Shown here piece by piece: positions 5,077 through 17,972 of a DNA stretch of 28,082 bases (position 1 is its first letter; each line of letters opens with the position of its first letter). The DNA lies in the IMG/VR virus record IMGVR_UViG_3300031237_000030, positions 1 to 28,082 of that record, one strand, 5' to 3'. This DNA comes from a virus. The notes under the pieces were generated by a model. The model was not told where the DNA came from, made no database searches, and was given only the letters and a program-made list of their open reading frames with translations. The position numbers were made by a program, and so were the translations under genes.

Positions 5077-5410
5077 CATGGCATCGTGCTATACTGTACC
5101 AATATGATCAATGGGTTACGATGGCATTTAACATAATAGCTATTATGCGCATAGCGGGTAGCAGGGGACTGTGGCGCTAGCCGCTCTAGGATGCCCTGAG
5201 TGGCGACCACTGTGGTATGGCTGCCCACACCGGCACTATTGGACACAACAGACCCCGGGCGGCTTTGCGGCAGGCGGGGGGTGGCATTTGGGGAACCCCC
5301 ACGCCTAGCAACTCACCCGCCCACTTCCCAATTATGGTGAGCACTACCAGATAGGTAGCCGTCAAACACCGGCTAGTCGGTGTTAGGATTTATACTTCTC
5401 GTGTATTAAC
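5077..5410. other. Gene-poor intergenic region with palindromes and hairpins
   Basis: I see no convincing gene here. The region holds an extended -10 box TGC-TATACT (5087-5095) without a good -35, a perfect 16-bp palindrome CATAATAGCTATTATG (5132-5147), a strong GC hairpin GGCGGGGGGT/ACCCCCACGCC (5273-5305), a 7-bp hairpin AACACCG/CGGTGTT (5365-5384) and the first member of a direct-repeat family. A 45-codon GTG frame (5171-5308) was considered and rejected. Confidence 0.5.
5132..5147. repeat. Perfect 16-bp palindrome, operator candidate
   Basis: CATAATAGCTATTATG reads the same on both strands. It lies about 30 bp downstream of the start predicted from the extended -10 box at 5087-5095, a position where a bound repressor would block transcription. 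Confidence 0.4.
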
Positions 5411-5586
5411 ATGACGCCCAAAGCCAGAGCAGGTAACACCCGCCGTTGTTCGCGATGGCGCAAGAATCACTCGGATAAGTATCGATCCTACATGCGTGAG
5501 TACATGAGACGTACACGACGCTATCCGTCAAAACCTGGCTAAGATACCGCTCGTGTATTAACATAAGCTGTCAAACCACGGTTAAG
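5361..5586 (+). repeat. Family of short direct repeats bracketing a small gene
   Basis: Two motifs recur. Motif A, CTCGTGTATTAACAT, is identical at 5398-5412 and 5550-5564, and the four bases ATAC precede both copies at the same distance. Motif B, GTCAAA-x4-GG-(C/T)TA, occurs at 5361-5376, 5527-5543 and 5570-5586. The A copies end at the start codon of the 43-residue gene and 36 bp before the Tat-like gene. They may be phage-specific promoters, protein-binding sites or remnants of duplicated gene-plus-leader units. Confidence 0.5.
5411..5542 (+). CDS. Very small basic protein
   Basis: 43 residues, about one third Arg or Lys. The core RWRKNHSDKYRSYMREYMRRTRRYPS is an amphipathic basic helix of the 'NPEKYREYMREYMRR' kind seen in many tiny phage and metagenomic proteins, sometimes next to HNH nucleases. 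It probably binds nucleic acid. There is no clear ribosome site; the ATG overlaps the end of a repeat (CTCGTGTATTAACAT). The start and the coding status are moderately supported by codon-length periodic Arg/Lys content and by the recognised motif. Confidence 0.5.
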   Translation: MTPKARAGNTRRCSRWRKNHSDKYRSYMREYMRRTRRYPSKPG

Positions 5587-5600
5587 ATGACGAGACCAGC

Positions 5601-5840
5601 ATGAACCGACGCGGATTTTTGAAGTTCCTAATAGCGGCACCGGTCTCAAGAGCACTTCCGTGGATGGGAATTGCAAGTGTTATAAAACCAATTATGCCGG
5701 GATTGTCGTACGACATTGGTTACACGTATTCTGAATTGATAAGGGTGACTTTACGAAAACACAGGACAGATATCGTGGCGAATCTATCCGCACGTAATGT
5801 CATATGGAATTACCTGACGAAGTCGGAGCGCAGGCAATGA
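5601..5840 (+). CDS. Tat-like signal fused to a mimic of the capsid protein N-terminal arm
   Basis: 79 residues. Residues 1-8 are MNRRGFLK, a near match to the twin-arginine export motif (S/T)RRxFLK, followed by a moderately hydrophobic stretch (FLIAAPVSRALPWMGIASVI). Residues 42-74 align without gaps to residues 7-39 of this phage's own major capsid protein (gene at 17010): 16 of 33 positions are identical, including ELxxxT, RKHR and NLSxRN, and most others are conservative. The DNA copies are clearly diverged, so this is not a recent duplication. It could be an exported or membrane-tethered decoy that binds capsid or scaffold, or a vestigial capsid fragment; no function is known to me. Its stop overlaps the next start (ATGA). 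Confidence 0.65.
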   Translation: MNRRGFLKFLIAAPVSRALPWMGIASVIKPIMPGLSYDIGYTYSELIRVTLRKHRTDIVANLSARNVIWNYLTKSERRQ

Positions 5841-5992
5841 AAACGACCCGCTATTTAAAGGCTGTTTGGCCAGTCGTTTACAGCAGACCTTGCGGGTTCC
5901 GACAACCGTTTCCGTTCAAGGGCTGGACGCCATTGGGGTATGAGTGGGTTTGGTCAAAACGATACTGGCGATATGTGTCGGGCCTATCGTGA
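5837..5992 (+). CDS. Hypothetical small Trp/Tyr-rich protein
   Basis: 51 residues, unusually aromatic (six Trp, six Tyr) and basic, not recognised. Start ATG at 5837 overlaps the stop of the Tat/capsid-mimic gene by 4 nt, with GGAG 8 nt upstream, so the two are co-translated. The WVWSKRYWRYV ending could sit at a membrane surface, but there is no membrane-length segment. Confidence 0.5.
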   Translation: MKTTRYLKAVWPVVYSRPCGFRQPFPFKGWTPLGYEWVWSKRYWRYVSGLS

Positions 5993-6343: not shown

Positions 6344-6474
6344 CCCGGCGGCTTTCACCGCCGGGGCAGTTCAGCTATAGGAAGAGCATGAACAGAAGAA
6401 GGATGAACCCCTTAATCTGTTTGTAGCTCAGCTTTATTCAACGCTGGCGTGCACGCCAACTGGTGAAAGTTGGC
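6344..6474 (+). other. Leader-like non-coding segment with three palindromes and a tiny ORF
   Basis: CCCGGCGG/CCGCCGGG hairpin (6344-6365, no T-tract); a 12-codon frame MNRRRMNPLICL (6388-6426) with AGGAAG upstream; the perfect 14-bp palindrome TGGCGTGCACGCCA (6445-6458); and the overlapping hairpin GCCAACT/AGTTGGC (6455-6474). The last two share bases and so would exclude each other. The arrangement resembles a leader that controls the gene starting at 6507. Confidence 0.35.
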
Positions 6475-6700: not shown

Positions 6701-8146
6701 ATTCTCCCGCTGCCGTTCAATTGGAAGCCTAGGCCGTATCAGTACCCGCTATGGAAGTACCTCACGAATGGCGGTAAACGGGCAGTCGTAAACTGGCACA
6801 GGCGAAGCGGAAAGGACGAGGTTTTTTTACATCACACCGCCTGTGCGGCTCATGAACGAGTCGGCAACTACTGGTACATGCTCCCTGAGTACGCTCAGGC
6901 GAGAAAGTCCATGTGGGATGCGGTTAACCCTCACTCGGGGAAACGCCGGATAGACGAAACCTTTCCGTTCGAGTTGAGAGCGACCACTCGCGATCACGAA
7001 ATGATGATCGTGTTTCGTAATGGTTCTACTTTCCAGCTCGTGGGAAGCGATAACTTCAACAGTTTGATCGGCAGTCCTCCCGTTGGGTTGATTTTCTCGG
7101 AATACGCGGTTTCCAATCCTCAAGCCTGGGGGTATCTGAGGCCCATTTTGCTGGAGAATGGAGGATGGGCTGGGTTTAATTCCACACCCCGCGGGAATAA
7201 CCACTTCAGGAACATTTGCAAGTACGCGGAAAAAGCACCGGGGTGGTTTTTTCAAAAACTCACTGCTGATGATACGAAGATTTTTACTCCGGAGCAGTTG
7301 GCGGAGGAATTGGCGGAGCTTCAAGCCCTTCACGGTGACGATTACGGAAAAAGTCTTTGGTTACAGGAGTACTACGGCAGTTTCGATGCGGCGATTCCGG
7401 GATCGATCTGGGGCGACTGCTTGGACAAGGCCCAAAACGCTGGTCGTATTTGCGAGGTTCCGCACGATCCTAGCTTCCCGGTACATACCGCTTGGGATCT
7501 TGGTCATACTGACGCTTCAGCGATCTGGTTCTACCAGATGGCAGGACAGTCAATTGATGTGATCAATTACTATGAGTCGAATTTTAAGGACATACAGTTT
7601 TACTGCGATGTACTTCGGGGGAAACCAAGTCCGGAGGATTCGACTGATCTCCGTGTCCTCAAGGAACGAACGGGGAAGTACAAGTACGGAACGCATTGGC
7701 TGCCTCACGACGCGAGAGCCAGGATATTGGCGGCGGGCGGTAAGTCGATTCAACAGCAGATGATCGACCAAAACGTGGGTCGGATCGTCATTGCGAAGAA
7801 GCTTGACCACGTTGACGGGATTCAGGCGGCGAGAGCTACGTTTCCTTACTGTCGTTTCGATAAGGTGAATTGTGAGTATGGCCTGGAAGTTCTCAGACAC
7901 TATCACTACGAATGGAACGCAGAGGATAAGATTTTCAGCAGTAACCCGGATCATAATTGGGCCTCCCACGGTTCGTCAGCCTTCCGGACTCTTTCCTTAT
8001 CCTGGAAGCGTCCTAAAGAGAAATGCCCGGAGGCTCCGATTATGGAGCGAATCATGAGCGCTTCCGTGAACAACCAGACCTTCGGCCAATTGAAGGACAA
8101 ACACTTGAGAAAAATGAAATCAATGCGGGAACTGAGGATCGATTAA
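6701..8146 (+). CDS. terL: Terminase large subunit (ATPase-nuclease DNA-packaging motor)
   Basis: 481 residues counted from an ATT codon at 6701. The protein drives ATP-powered packaging into the prohead and cuts the concatemer. Seen: an N-terminal LPLPFNWKPRPYQYPLWKYL; Walker A-like HRRSGKD at 33-39; Walker B GLIFSEY at 129-135 (Glu134); coupling motif STPRG at 161-165; then the RNase H-like nuclease with WDLGHTDAS (Asp266) and WLPHDAR (Asp337). A third acidic residue would normally follow in HGADAFR; here the text is HGSSAFR, with Asp417 a few residues earlier. The start is ATT because GAGG lies 6 nt before it and family members begin a few residues ahead of LPxxWxPRxYQ; the first ATG (6878) would delete Walker A. 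Confidence 0.92.
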   Translation: MLPLPFNWKPRPYQYPLWKYLTNGGKRAVVNWHRRSGKDEVFLHHTACAAHERVGNYWYMLPEYAQARKSMWDAVNPHSGKRRIDETFPFELRATTRDHEMMIVFRNGSTFQLVGSDNFNSLIGSPPVGLIFSEYAVSNPQAWGYLRPILLENGGWAGFNSTPRGNNHFRNICKYAEKAPGWFFQKLTADDTKIFTPEQLAEELAELQALHGDDYGKSLWLQEYYGSFDAAIPGSIWGDCLDKAQNAGRICEVPHDPSFPVHTAWDLGHTDASAIWFYQMAGQSIDVINYYESNFKDIQFYCDVLRGKPSPEDSTDLRVLKERTGKYKYGTHWLPHDARARILAAGGKSIQQQMIDQNVGRIVIAKKLDHVDGIQAARATFPYCRFDKVNCEYGLEVLRHYHYEWNAEDKIFSSNPDHNWASHGSSAFRTLSLSWKRPKEKCPEAPIMERIMSASVNNQTFGQLKDKHLRKMKSMRELRID

Positions 8147-8586
8147 TGCTGCCTTTCATGTATGACGCACAGGATAAGATGCTCTATCGAGTCGCTTCGG
8201 TTTTGGTGAATGGTACGACTATTTTTACGATAACCGGCGGGCCGATCCAGATTCTTGCGCTCGGGTGTGTATGTATAACCGCTAATGACGCGACGGCGTC
8301 TACTTTGCAATACAGCGCCGATGGTACCGATGGGGCCGCAACGACTATCACGGGAGCGTCGGCGTCATTGGCTGCTGCCGCCGCTGGAACGATCGTCGCA
8401 GCAGTTCCCGGGACTCTCGCGACCGCGCCGGCGTTGTATGCTAACGGTGTTGGGTTAGCCGGTACCGTCGGCATCATCGTGCCCGCCGGGATCATAACGA
8501 CCGTCGTTGGGGTCGGTTCGACGACGGGGACGTGGAGGCATTTCATCCGTTACATGCCGTTAGCGCCAGGGGTTACGGTTGTCTAA
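8146..8586 (+). CDS. Phage structural protein, unknown role (between terminase and portal)
   Basis: 146 residues. After MLPFMYDAQDKMLYRVASV comes a long Ala/Thr/Val/Gly-rich segment of beta character and an ending TGTWRHFIRYMPLAPGVTVV, typical of small virion proteins. ATG at 8146 overlaps the TerL stop by one base (TAATG) with GAGG 8-9 nt upstream. Its position and composition suggest a minor head or decoration protein; no family is recognised. Confidence 0.6.
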   Translation: MLPFMYDAQDKMLYRVASVLVNGTTIFTITGGPIQILALGCVCITANDATASTLQYSADGTDGAATTITGASASLAAAAAGTIVAAVPGTLATAPALYANGVGLAGTVGIIVPAGIITTVVGVGSTTGTWRHFIRYMPLAPGVTVV

Positions 8587-10916
8587 TGGCGGGCAAAAAA
8601 TCGGCCGACGACCTGGTTAAAAAACCCGCGGAAGTCGTTACCTATTGGCTCGATGAAATATCGGCCTCGAAGAAAAGGGAAAAAGACTGGCGTAAAGATG
8701 GGCAGAGGATTTATGAAATATACGGTGGAGAAAAATCAGCCACTACGCCGTTCAACATCCTCTATTCGAACACCGAGACGCTTTTACCGGCCCTCTATTC
8801 GGCGGTACCAAGACCCATCGTTCAACGGCGTTTCAAGGACGATGACCCTCTCGGCAAACAAGCCGCGATGGCGGGGCAACGGGTCTTAGAATTCCTGCTT
8901 GATACGAATGTTGAAGGCTATGAAACGTTCGACGAGGCAATGCAGGCGGCGGTCCTCGATGCCCTTCTACCGGGACGTGGCGTCACTTGCATCAAATACG
9001 ACGCCGAGACCGGAGTATTGCCAAGCTCGGACGACTCGGACGAAGACGATAAAAAAACCGATGACGACAAAGCCACGCCGTATAAAATCTCCGAGTTAGC
9101 TTGTACCGACTCGAAGTTGTGGAACCGGGTTTTCTATGGATACGCCAAAAAATGGTCCAAAGTCCCTTGGATAGCGTATGAAGAACACCTGGACAAAAAA
9201 GAGGCGACACGGCTGTTCGGCGAAGAGATATCCGGGAAAATCGTCTATACGACTAGCGATGACGACTCGGACGAATACGATAAAAAAACCGGTGATGATA
9301 AAAACCAGGGGGATAGAAAGACCGCTCTCGTCTATCAGATATGGGATAAGGATGACGGAAGGAAGATCAGATATATAAGTCCGGCATATCTCGACGGGTA
9401 CTTGAAGGTCGATGATGACCCGTTGGAGCTGACGGGATTTTTCAATCAACCGAAACCGCTGTCGTTCCTCAAGAAGAACGATATCGCTCCGGTCGCGATT
9501 TACAACCTATATGAAAATCAGGCGAAGGAGCTGAATCAGCTTACGTTGCGCATCAGCAGGATCGTGAAAGCGATCAAGGCGAGGGGTGTTTATGACGCGG
9601 AGCTGGGCGATGATATAGCGAAACTCTTCGAAGCAGACGATAACGAGATGCTGCCGGCTGATAAGTCATCGTCTCTCGCTGCGGAGAAGGGGTTGCAAAA
9701 CGCAATCTGGTTCGCGCCGGTTGAAGTTTTGATGACGGTCCTGGAACGCCTATATCAAGCGAGAGAAAATTGTAAGAAGGTCATTTATGAAATTACCGGG
9801 ATCGCCGACATCATGCGCGGCGCGAGTCTCGCCTCGGAGACGCTCGGTGCCCAGAAAATAAAAGAGTCTTGGGGTACGCTGCGCCTCAAACGTCTGCAAA
9901 AAGAAGTCCAGCGTTACGCCCGCGATATACTCCGCATGAAATTGGAAATCGCCGCGACGAAGTTCAGCGAAGAAACGTGGGCGAAGATGACGGGGCTGCC
10001 TTTCGTAACGACTCAACAACGTCAGCAATTAGAGTCTATCGCGCAAGCGGCCCAAGCCTCGGGACAACCGCTGGACCCACAAACTCAAGCTCAGCTTTCC
10101 GCACCGGTGTGGGGCCAAGTGCTGGAGATGTTGAGGGACGACACTCAAAGGTCTTACCGGATCGACATCGAAACGAATTCGACCGTCGAACCCGAAGCGG
10201 TAGAGGACCAAAAGAACATCTCGGACTTATTGACAGCCTTGGGTCAATTCTTGAATGGCGTAGGGCCGTTGGTGGCGAAGGGCGTAATGCCGTTCCAGGT
10301 CGCGCAGTCGATGTTGCTGACGATTACCCGACGGTTCAGGTTCGGTCCCGAGATCGAAGATCAGATCAAACAAATGCAGCCTCCCAAGCCAGAGGACAAC
10401 GGGGAGGCGGCTAAATCCGCCCAGAAAGACGTTCAAGTCCTCCAGGACAAGATGGCGATGCAAGCCCAGCTTACCCAAGTCCAGCAAAAGCTACAGACGA
10501 CGGAAGCGGAGAAGAATCTTATCGAACGTCAAACCGCACTCGATGTCAGAGAAATAAAGTTGAACGCGGAAGAACAGGTTTTCGAGTTGAAGAAATCGTT
10601 AGCCGAAAAAGAAATAGCGGTAAAAGTAAAGGGCGAACACGAAAAACTTGATTTTAAATCCAAAATCGAAACGATTAAGAAATCTAAAGAGGACACCTTG
10701 AACAGCAAAGACATAGCGGCCATGCAAAAAATGGTTCAGCAATTGACCGACATGAACAAGCAGATGATTACGGTTGTGTCTCAACAGGCTGCGGAAAGCA
10801 AAGAAGCCGTGAATTCGATCATAAAAGCCGTAATTGCTCCACGCCGGAAAAAGGCCATACGTGATAACAACGGTCGTATAGCGGAAACAGTGGAAACCAT
10901 CGAAACCATAAACTAA
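8586..10916 (+). CDS. Portal protein (P22-like)
   Basis: 776 residues, starting at ATG 8586 which overlaps the previous stop (TAATG). The portal is the dodecameric ring at one capsid vertex through which DNA enters and leaves. The N-terminus (WLDEISASKKREKDWRKDGQRIYEIYGG, then FNILYSNTETLLPALYSAVPRPIVQRRF) is the characteristic start of P22-type portals, and the length is close to P22 gp1 (725). The central region has VIYEITGIADIMRGAS-x-ASETLGAQKIKESWG, another hallmark. The C-terminal ~160 residues are Gln/Glu/Lys-rich and predicted coiled coil, suiting the portal barrel. Odd: two nearly identical acidic inserts (SDDSDEDDKKTDDDK-like) about 77 residues apart. Confidence 0.9.
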   Translation: MAGKKSADDLVKKPAEVVTYWLDEISASKKREKDWRKDGQRIYEIYGGEKSATTPFNILYSNTETLLPALYSAVPRPIVQRRFKDDDPLGKQAAMAGQRVLEFLLDTNVEGYETFDEAMQAAVLDALLPGRGVTCIKYDAETGVLPSSDDSDEDDKKTDDDKATPYKISELACTDSKLWNRVFYGYAKKWSKVPWIAYEEHLDKKEATRLFGEEISGKIVYTTSDDDSDEYDKKTGDDKNQGDRKTALVYQIWDKDDGRKIRYISPAYLDGYLKVDDDPLELTGFFNQPKPLSFLKKNDIAPVAIYNLYENQAKELNQLTLRISRIVKAIKARGVYDAELGDDIAKLFEADDNEMLPADKSSSLAAEKGLQNAIWFAPVEVLMTVLERLYQARENCKKVIYEITGIADIMRGASLASETLGAQKIKESWGTLRLKRLQKEVQRYARDILRMKLEIAATKFSEETWAKMTGLPFVTTQQRQQLESIAQAAQASGQPLDPQTQAQLSAPVWGQVLEMLRDDTQRSYRIDIETNSTVEPEAVEDQKNISDLLTALGQFLNGVGPLVAKGVMPFQVAQSMLLTITRRFRFGPEIEDQIKQMQPPKPEDNGEAAKSAQKDVQVLQDKMAMQAQLTQVQQKLQTTEAEKNLIERQTALDVREIKLNAEEQVFELKKSLAEKEIAVKVKGEHEKLDFKSKIETIKKSKEDTLNSKDIAAMQKMVQQLTDMNKQMITVVSQQAAESKEAVNSIIKAVIAPRRKKAIRDNNGRIAETVETIETIN
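9031..9302 (+). repeat. Duplicated acidic insert inside the portal gene
   Basis: 9031-9071 and 9262-9302 match at 37 of 41 bases, including an A7 tract, and encode DDSDEDDKKTDDDK and DDSDEYDKKTGDDK. They flank a segment homologous to normal portal sequence (about 9072-9261), which suggests that a short element was copied into two surface loops. Confidence 0.6.
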
Positions 10917-17009: not shown

Positions 17010-17972
17010 ATGGCCTCGCCTAACAGTACTTTTACGGAACTGGTTACGACCACGTTCCGGAAACACCGGGGGGAGATCAAAGACAACCTCTCCAACCGAA
17101 ACGCATTTTTAAAATATGTAATGAAACGCGGCAACAAACGGACGGAGGACGGAGGTCTAACGATCGCAACACCTCTCGACTATGCCGCTAACTCGACCTA
17201 TCAGCGTTATTCAGACTGGGATGTACTTAATATCTCCGCCTCGGATGTCATTTCGTCGGCGGAATACCAGTGGCGCCAGGTATCGATTAGCGTTGTGGCA
17301 TCCGGCCGGGAACTACGCATCAACTCCGGTGATTCCCGCATCATTAATCTTGCCAAAGCCAGGATCAAGAACGCTATCAGGACATTCAACAACAACTTTT
17401 CATCCGATCTATATTCCTCGGGTGCTCTGACGAACCAGATTAACGGTTTACAGGCGATCATCGCCGATCTTGGTACTGGGACGGTAGGCGGTATCGATTC
17501 AGCCGCCTTCCCGTTCTGGCAGAATACCGTGATCGATGCGTCTGTCCTGTCGGTAACGCCGTCAGCGACTACCATCGAAAACGGTCTGATGCTGCCGGCA
17601 TGGTTGGCAACTGACCGCGGTCCGGATGACCAGGTGGACCTGATTGTCGCATCCAACGACTATTACACCTTCTTCGAAGGTTCCCAAGTCTCTTTGAAGC
17701 GCTACAACGACACTCAGAAAGCCGATGCTGGATTCGTCACGCTGAAGTACAAGAATGCTGATGTGATCTACGATGGCAATTCCGGCATTCCATCCTCGCG
17801 CATGTACGGTATCAACTCCAACTACTTCGAGTTGGTAGTCCACCAGGACGCGGATTTGGAGGTCATGGAAGAAATGCGCCCGATCAATCAAGACGGCGAA
17901 GTGATTCCGATTCTGTGGATGGGGAACGTCGTTTGTTCCAACCGCAAACAGCAATTCGTCATCTTGCCGTAG
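17010..17972 (+). CDS. Major capsid protein
   Basis: 320 residues, the main shell protein. The N-terminal arm (TELVTTTFRKHRGEIKDNLSNRNAFLKYV, residues 9-37) and the following LTIATPLDYAANSTYQRYSDWDVLNI, VSISVVASGRELRINSGDSRIINLAKARIKNAIRTFNNNFSSDLYSSG are features of the capsid family found with this portal/terminase type. The C-terminus (HQDADLEVMEEMRPINQDGEVIPILWMGNVVCSNRKQQFVILP) is also typical. AAGGAG stands 7-8 nt before the start. It forms a two-gene block with the next protein, closed by a terminator, so high expression is expected. Its N-terminal arm is echoed in the small gene at 5601. Confidence 0.85.
   Translation: MASPNSTFTELVTTTFRKHRGEIKDNLSNRNAFLKYVMKRGNKRTEDGGLTIATPLDYAANSTYQRYSDWDVLNISASDVISSAEYQWRQVSISVVASGRELRINSGDSRIINLAKARIKNAIRTFNNNFSSDLYSSGALTNQINGLQAIIADLGTGTVGGIDSAAFPFWQNTVIDASVLSVTPSATTIENGLMLPAWLATDRGPDDQVDLIVASNDYYTFFEGSQVSLKRYNDTQKADAGFVTLKYKNADVIYDGNSGIPSSRMYGINSNYFELVVHQDADLEVMEEMRPINQDGEVIPILWMGNVVCSNRKQQFVILP

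Follow-up and report, generated by a model that had tools for sequence, protein, structure and literature searches.

The window and its chimeric gene

The window, by which we mean the whole 28,082-base virus record that was analysed, carries the structural module of an Mx8-like podophage, with terminase, portal, major capsid protein (MCP) and tail genes. At positions 5601–5840 of the plus strand lies a 79-residue ORF starting with MNRRGFLK, exactly as the initial annotation had described it, which consists of a twin-arginine-type (RR) leader, a linker and a copy of the capsid arm. Downstream, on the same strand, are the large terminase gene (6702–8146), recognized from its relatives in L086 and L087 by gene order and sequence, the portal gene (8532–10916; phrog_12082, E 3e-150) and an MCP gene of the podophage (Mx8-like) family (17010–17972; NF033394, E 1.3e-85; phrog_9953, E 2.8e-74). 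The PHROG match of the terminase was phrog_2472, a family without a named function; its frame is open from about 6702, upstream of the first ATG (6878), with a non-canonical start codon and the motif HRRSGKDE in that upstream part. Between the chimera and the terminase, a tiny ORF (6388–6426, plus strand; MNRRRMNPLICL) follows a GGAAGAG site and is perhaps a truncated second RR leader. The region in front of the chimera (5077–5600), between leftward and rightward genes, is gene-poor and contains repeats such as TCGTGTATTAACAT, and L086 has a comparable stretch ahead of its terminase region.

The leader consists of the twin-arginine-type motif near the N-terminus (MNRRGFLK, 5601–5624) and of residues 9–31 (5625–5693), which are moderately hydrophobic (Kyte–Doolittle 1.35 over 17 residues). 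An AxA cleavage site and an uninterrupted hydrophobic region were looked for in the ORF and were absent, Arg17 lying inside the region, and the match to the Pfam family TAT_signal (PF10518) reached 14.1 bits (E 0.047), below the cut-off of 22.7. For these three reasons the leader is described fairly as only 'Tat-like', the RR motif that had been pointed out being real. The stop codon of the chimera (5838–5840) overlaps the start of the next ORF (5837–5992, plus strand) in an ATGA, supporting a real, translationally coupled gene; no clear Shine–Dalgarno site was found in front of the chimera.

Residues 42–74 of the ORF (5724–5822) align with residues 7–39 of the MCP (17028–17126) without gaps and with 16 of 33 positions identical, as had been claimed (pairwise BLASTP E 1e-8). 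The Smith–Waterman score of the pair was 81, while the best of 5000 shuffles, the check that the initial annotation had named, reached 50 and the second-best of the 190 window ORFs scored 34 against the MCP. A profile built from 59 distinct MCP arms likewise retrieved the ORF among about 20,000 ORFs (E 1e-7), and the match is not due to chance. NCBIfam and PHROG profiles gave no match to the ORF, and a complete HK97-fold MCP (NF033394/phrog_9953) was ruled out, the copy covering residues 7–39 of 320. In a structure prediction of low confidence (mean pLDDT 52), the source segment of the MCP falls on helices 8–20 and 27–40.

Identity between the two arms amounts to 23, 23 and 10 of 33 at codon positions 1, 2 and 3, indicating that the likeness has been kept at the protein level while the DNA diverged. 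This agrees with the earlier proposal of a mimic kept for some time, and we read the window arm as an old copy of the MCP arm whose protein sequence has been retained. A recent partial tandem duplication of the MCP was rejected on the basis of the third codon positions (10 of 33 identical) and of the distance of 11.4 kb between copy and MCP, and misassembly on the basis of the diverged DNA, the recurrence described below and the coupling to the next ORF.

To place the gene in its own group, we retrieved 80 MCP relatives (71–84% identity) and searched 42 of their whole records with the window ORF, whose sole match in them was the MCP itself. The chimera was also absent from the terminase relatives L086 and L087; searches with the ORF gave a single locus among viral contigs, with only the leader in common, and no relative among genome contigs or isolate phages. 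When the chimera arm was compared with the 59 MCP arms, the phage's own arm ranked only 28th. Together these results indicate that the chimera is uncommon in the window's group, and its arm does not follow that of the phage's own MCP, a relation that the initial annotation had proposed to test. The absence of similar genes from close relatives had been named there as refuting the proposal, and is in our view outweighed by the recurrence of the same architecture in many unrelated phages. In one Mx8-like relative, a 59-residue ORF that follows the MCP gene (L056:12208–12385) and ends in 'LSALIRFNFHKNRKAIAANIMNTNVILRSIA' may be a leaderless capsid-arm copy, its likeness to the arm being equalled in 3 of 5000 shuffles.

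Recurrence of leader–head-protein chimeras in unrelated phages

We scanned IMG/VR for MNRRGFLK and for AGGA, which resembles a ribosome-binding site, followed by MNRRxF[LF]K. These scans yielded well over 100 short ORFs, whose C-termini often resembled pieces of other capsid proteins. For a survey of 53 whole or near-whole contigs, the RR-leader ORFs were compared from residue 27 onward with all ORFs of at least 150 residues. At E≤1e-3, 16 of 49 RR-leader ORFs (44 contigs) matched a protein of their own contig, as compared with 0.45 expected from foreign contigs; the survey counts are lower bounds, the relaxed detection of RR ORFs having missed both G078 and the window. About one-third of the surveyed contigs had been selected after the ORF was read. 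The remaining 33 ORFs, from contigs selected before reading, gave seven own-contig matches: four to head proteins (G089, G062, G063 and G110), one to a tail-spike-like protein, one to an unknown protein and one within a paralogous pair. Fisher's test for this second batch gave 1.7e-7, and 8e-6 with the three head-protein matches that are left without G063, which had been spotted by eye beforehand.

As a control we took 1515 small ORFs without an RR leader from these contigs; 22 had an own-contig match, and the only one of these to a listed head protein was the G078 chimera, which the leader filter had missed. In the reverse search, each head protein was compared with the ORFs of at least 40 residues of its own contig (E<0.05), and in 15 of 17 contigs, among them the window, the RR-leader ORF was the sole non-self match, the other two giving none; these contigs had been picked for having a match, so that the search shows specificity, not frequency. 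In tblastn searches, three chimera tails matched annotated capsid proteins of isolate phages. As judged from these sequences, the architecture of leader plus capsid copy is present in many unrelated phages, which goes beyond what the initial annotation had claimed.

Several further ORFs were noted during the survey. L176, on an 8-kb contig without a recognized MCP gene, resembles the arm by eye and gave E 0.04 in a two-sequence search, which is suggestive only. RR-leader ORFs with tail-spike- or tail-fibre-like tails were seen in L171, L181, L188, L242 and L143/L159, those of L143 and L188 being judged by eye; a tail-related piece was confirmed against the own contig only for G134 (L242). A cultured phage, Tunturiibacter phage Tunturi_3, encodes an RR-leader protein of 170 residues with an unknown tail (L379; gp49, 42137–42649, minus strand). 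Two RR-leader ORFs with different tails occur in one phage at L317 (1747–2133 and 2135–2434), L119, L269/L271 (G078) and G140, the two ORFs of G140 being paralogues.

Copied segments, leaders and constraint

The copied protein is mostly an MCP, from at least six families, and sometimes a portal protein or head–tail adaptor. Profiles assigned the major head protein sources to phrog_1357 (three), 264 (two), 14242, 283 and 4523/371 (two), and that of G057 weakly to 1328/9953; further sources were a P22 coat protein (PF11651, E 1.6e-51), a P22-like portal (PF16510, E 4e-5) and a head–tail adaptor (phrog_332). The P22-type chimera itself matches positions 3–54 of PF11651, below the family cut-off. 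Most MCP copies are N-terminal (residues 7–39 in the window, 8–67 in G057, 8–62 in G078, 10–63 in G089, 1–67 in G065 and 28–71 in G068), those of G045 and G047 correspond to the first part of the MCP domain, and internal or C-terminal copies were found in G055, G062, G063 and G044. The RR-leader ORF of G060 (L289:15405–15803) apparently carries two MCP segments in swapped order (~115–135, then ~4–38). Directly behind the chimera with the P22 arm, a Radical-SAM-like protein (L317:2444–3385; phrog_13987, weak) has an N-terminus resembling another segment of the same coat protein, with 1 of 5000 shuffles scoring as well.

A linker of the IFLPPxGGW or LLWVPGxKxIFLP type recurs between leader and copy. 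Against TAT_signal, the leader of L126 scored above the cut-off (25.1), those of L222, L174 and L092 scored 21.7, 20.0 and 19.5, respectively, and that of L383 gave no match; the leaders of the window, L174 and L383 are short or lack AxA.

In G065, G078, G045, G047, G060, G063, G087 and G088 the chimera overlaps or abuts its neighbours, through an ATGA or by a few bases. The branch with a phrog_14242-type arm comprises 12 contigs, and in four of these, L382, L383, L387 and L388, the chimera overlaps the same upstream cold-shock-like gene. Within it, L387 and L391 differ by dN 0.14 and dS 0.66 (dN/dS ~0.21), while other pairs show dN of 0.26–0.51 with synonymous sites near or at saturation. In a tree of this branch the chimera arms group apart from the MCP arms with weak support (77/21), suggesting that one lineage has been kept and the arm not copied anew each time. 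Over 15 chimera–source pairs (668 aligned codons), identity was 55, 68 and 33% at codon positions 1, 2 and 3. The sequences directly show this architecture, the way it recurs, a specificity for head proteins and constraint at the protein level.

Proposed function and relation to known systems

From these features we infer targeting to the membrane, binding, and whatever effect there may be on assembly. The RR-type leader is predicted to direct the small protein to the inner membrane, and the copied segment is predicted still to bind the normal partner of the arm, be it scaffold, a neighbouring capsid subunit or the portal. Such partners are known: the P22 scaffold binds the N-arm of the MCP (D14, E15 and E18; PMC9965877), that of SPP1 is bound by the N-terminal helix of the MCP (PMC6813328), and prohead assembly in T4 begins from the portal at the inner membrane (PMC9958956). 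A membrane-going leader joined to a scaffold- or capsid-binding arm would most simply make a membrane-held bait for head-assembly parts, a reading that we favour tentatively, at somewhat under an even chance. The held chimera would either dock or nucleate the phage's own proheads or withdraw head parts from competing phages; exclusion suits the chimeras that lie away from head genes, and docking those in the head module, the window included. The copies are not always of the N-arm (middle or C-terminal in G055, G062 and G063), so that one binding mechanism may not suit all. Against the bait, a copy exported by Tat would, if not anchored, end up in the periplasm and apart from assembly; the short or AxA-less leaders of several members and the lack of the gene in the 42 records of the window's clade also argue against it. 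For a broader proposal we consider the case to be evenly balanced: tailed phages that are unrelated would, on repeated occasions, have made and retained genes in which a twin-arginine-type leader precedes a piece of the phage's own capsid or portal protein, an undescribed class that would control head assembly, their own or a rival's, at the inner membrane.

An exported or anchored arm copy might instead keep related phages or satellites in the same cell from assembling their heads, which we think rather unlikely. Several chimeras are found apart from the head genes and on the opposite strand, as expected of early expression, one of them (G065) beside a gene read from its sequence as RecB/Cas4-like; the L383/L387/L382/L388 operon stands behind the cold-shock-like gene, and the copies have diverged from the phage's own MCP. 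Other chimeras, however, sit inside the head module, and the copies are still enough like the own MCP that self-inhibition would need to be avoided. The improbable reading as a decoy or trigger for capsid-sensing host defence, in the manner of CapRel, a TIR system or Lit, draws on established capsid-sensing immunity (PMC9712102, PMC11312562) and on the many MCP places from which the segments come, which would suit many sensors, but the known sensors are cytoplasmic, whereas the RR leader points to the membrane, and portal and adaptor copies suit this reading less well.

Neutral debris, in which a leader gene captures gene pieces without function, is disfavoured, and we rate it a shade lower than the decoy. 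The segments are varied, the window copy is unique in its clade and a few RR-leader ORFs carry tail-related-looking pieces (G134; L143 and L188 by eye), as debris might, yet codon positions 1 and 2 are kept while position 3 is randomized, dN/dS is about 0.2, the operon is conserved in four contigs with ATGA coupling among the class, and the bias towards head proteins is strong. The least probable reading, in our judgement, is a sensor that would link the timing of lysis, or events at the membrane, to the making of heads, in which the arm would meet capsid or scaffold and free a membrane function of the leader; the leader-plus-arm architecture and the position of some chimeras, that of the window for one, where the late module begins would fit it, but a holin-like or lysis context is not established.

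If the membrane-held bait or a related action is true, phages repeatedly make separate membrane-directed proteins from pieces of their own heads, and how head assembly comes into contact with the membrane, and why, is an old question that could be tested with very small genes. The chimeras would also offer peptides of natural origin and matched sequence, which may inhibit or steer assembly by binding scaffold or capsid, as well as a lead to the function of short RR-leader ORFs annotated as hypothetical. They seem to form a kind of phage gene not described before, probably acting on shell assembly at the cell membrane: in agreement with the initial annotation, we found no description of leader–capsid chimeras in the open-licence literature, a body that leaves out most subscription papers and bioRxiv preprints.

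Of the known systems, Tat signal peptides (PF10518) and the uncleaved RR signal anchors among them share with the chimeras the RRxFLK motif and, behind it, a stretch of modest hydrophobicity. The chimeras differ in their passenger, a fragment of capsid or portal some 20–75 residues long, and in often having no AxA; the window leader scores below the Pfam cut-off. The membrane-bound prohead initiation of T4 by gp20/gp40 likewise ties head assembly to the inner membrane, but uses the whole portal and a chaperone, without a leader fused to a capsid fragment (PMC9958956). CpmA and CpmB of SaPIs are likewise small proteins that act on phage head assembly; these are satellite genes competing with the helper's scaffold (PMC5644958), whereas the chimera is encoded by the phage itself and joins a leader to a capsid or portal copy. 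In the T4 Gol peptide/Lit and CapRel (PMC9712102) systems, a short capsid stretch or capsid protein likewise has a biological effect of its own, but those triggers belong to the MCP, while the chimera is a separate, leader-bearing gene. The parts, RR leaders and MCP arms, are known; what is new, as far as we have found, is that they are combined, that the combination recurs across capsid families and that it is specific for head proteins.
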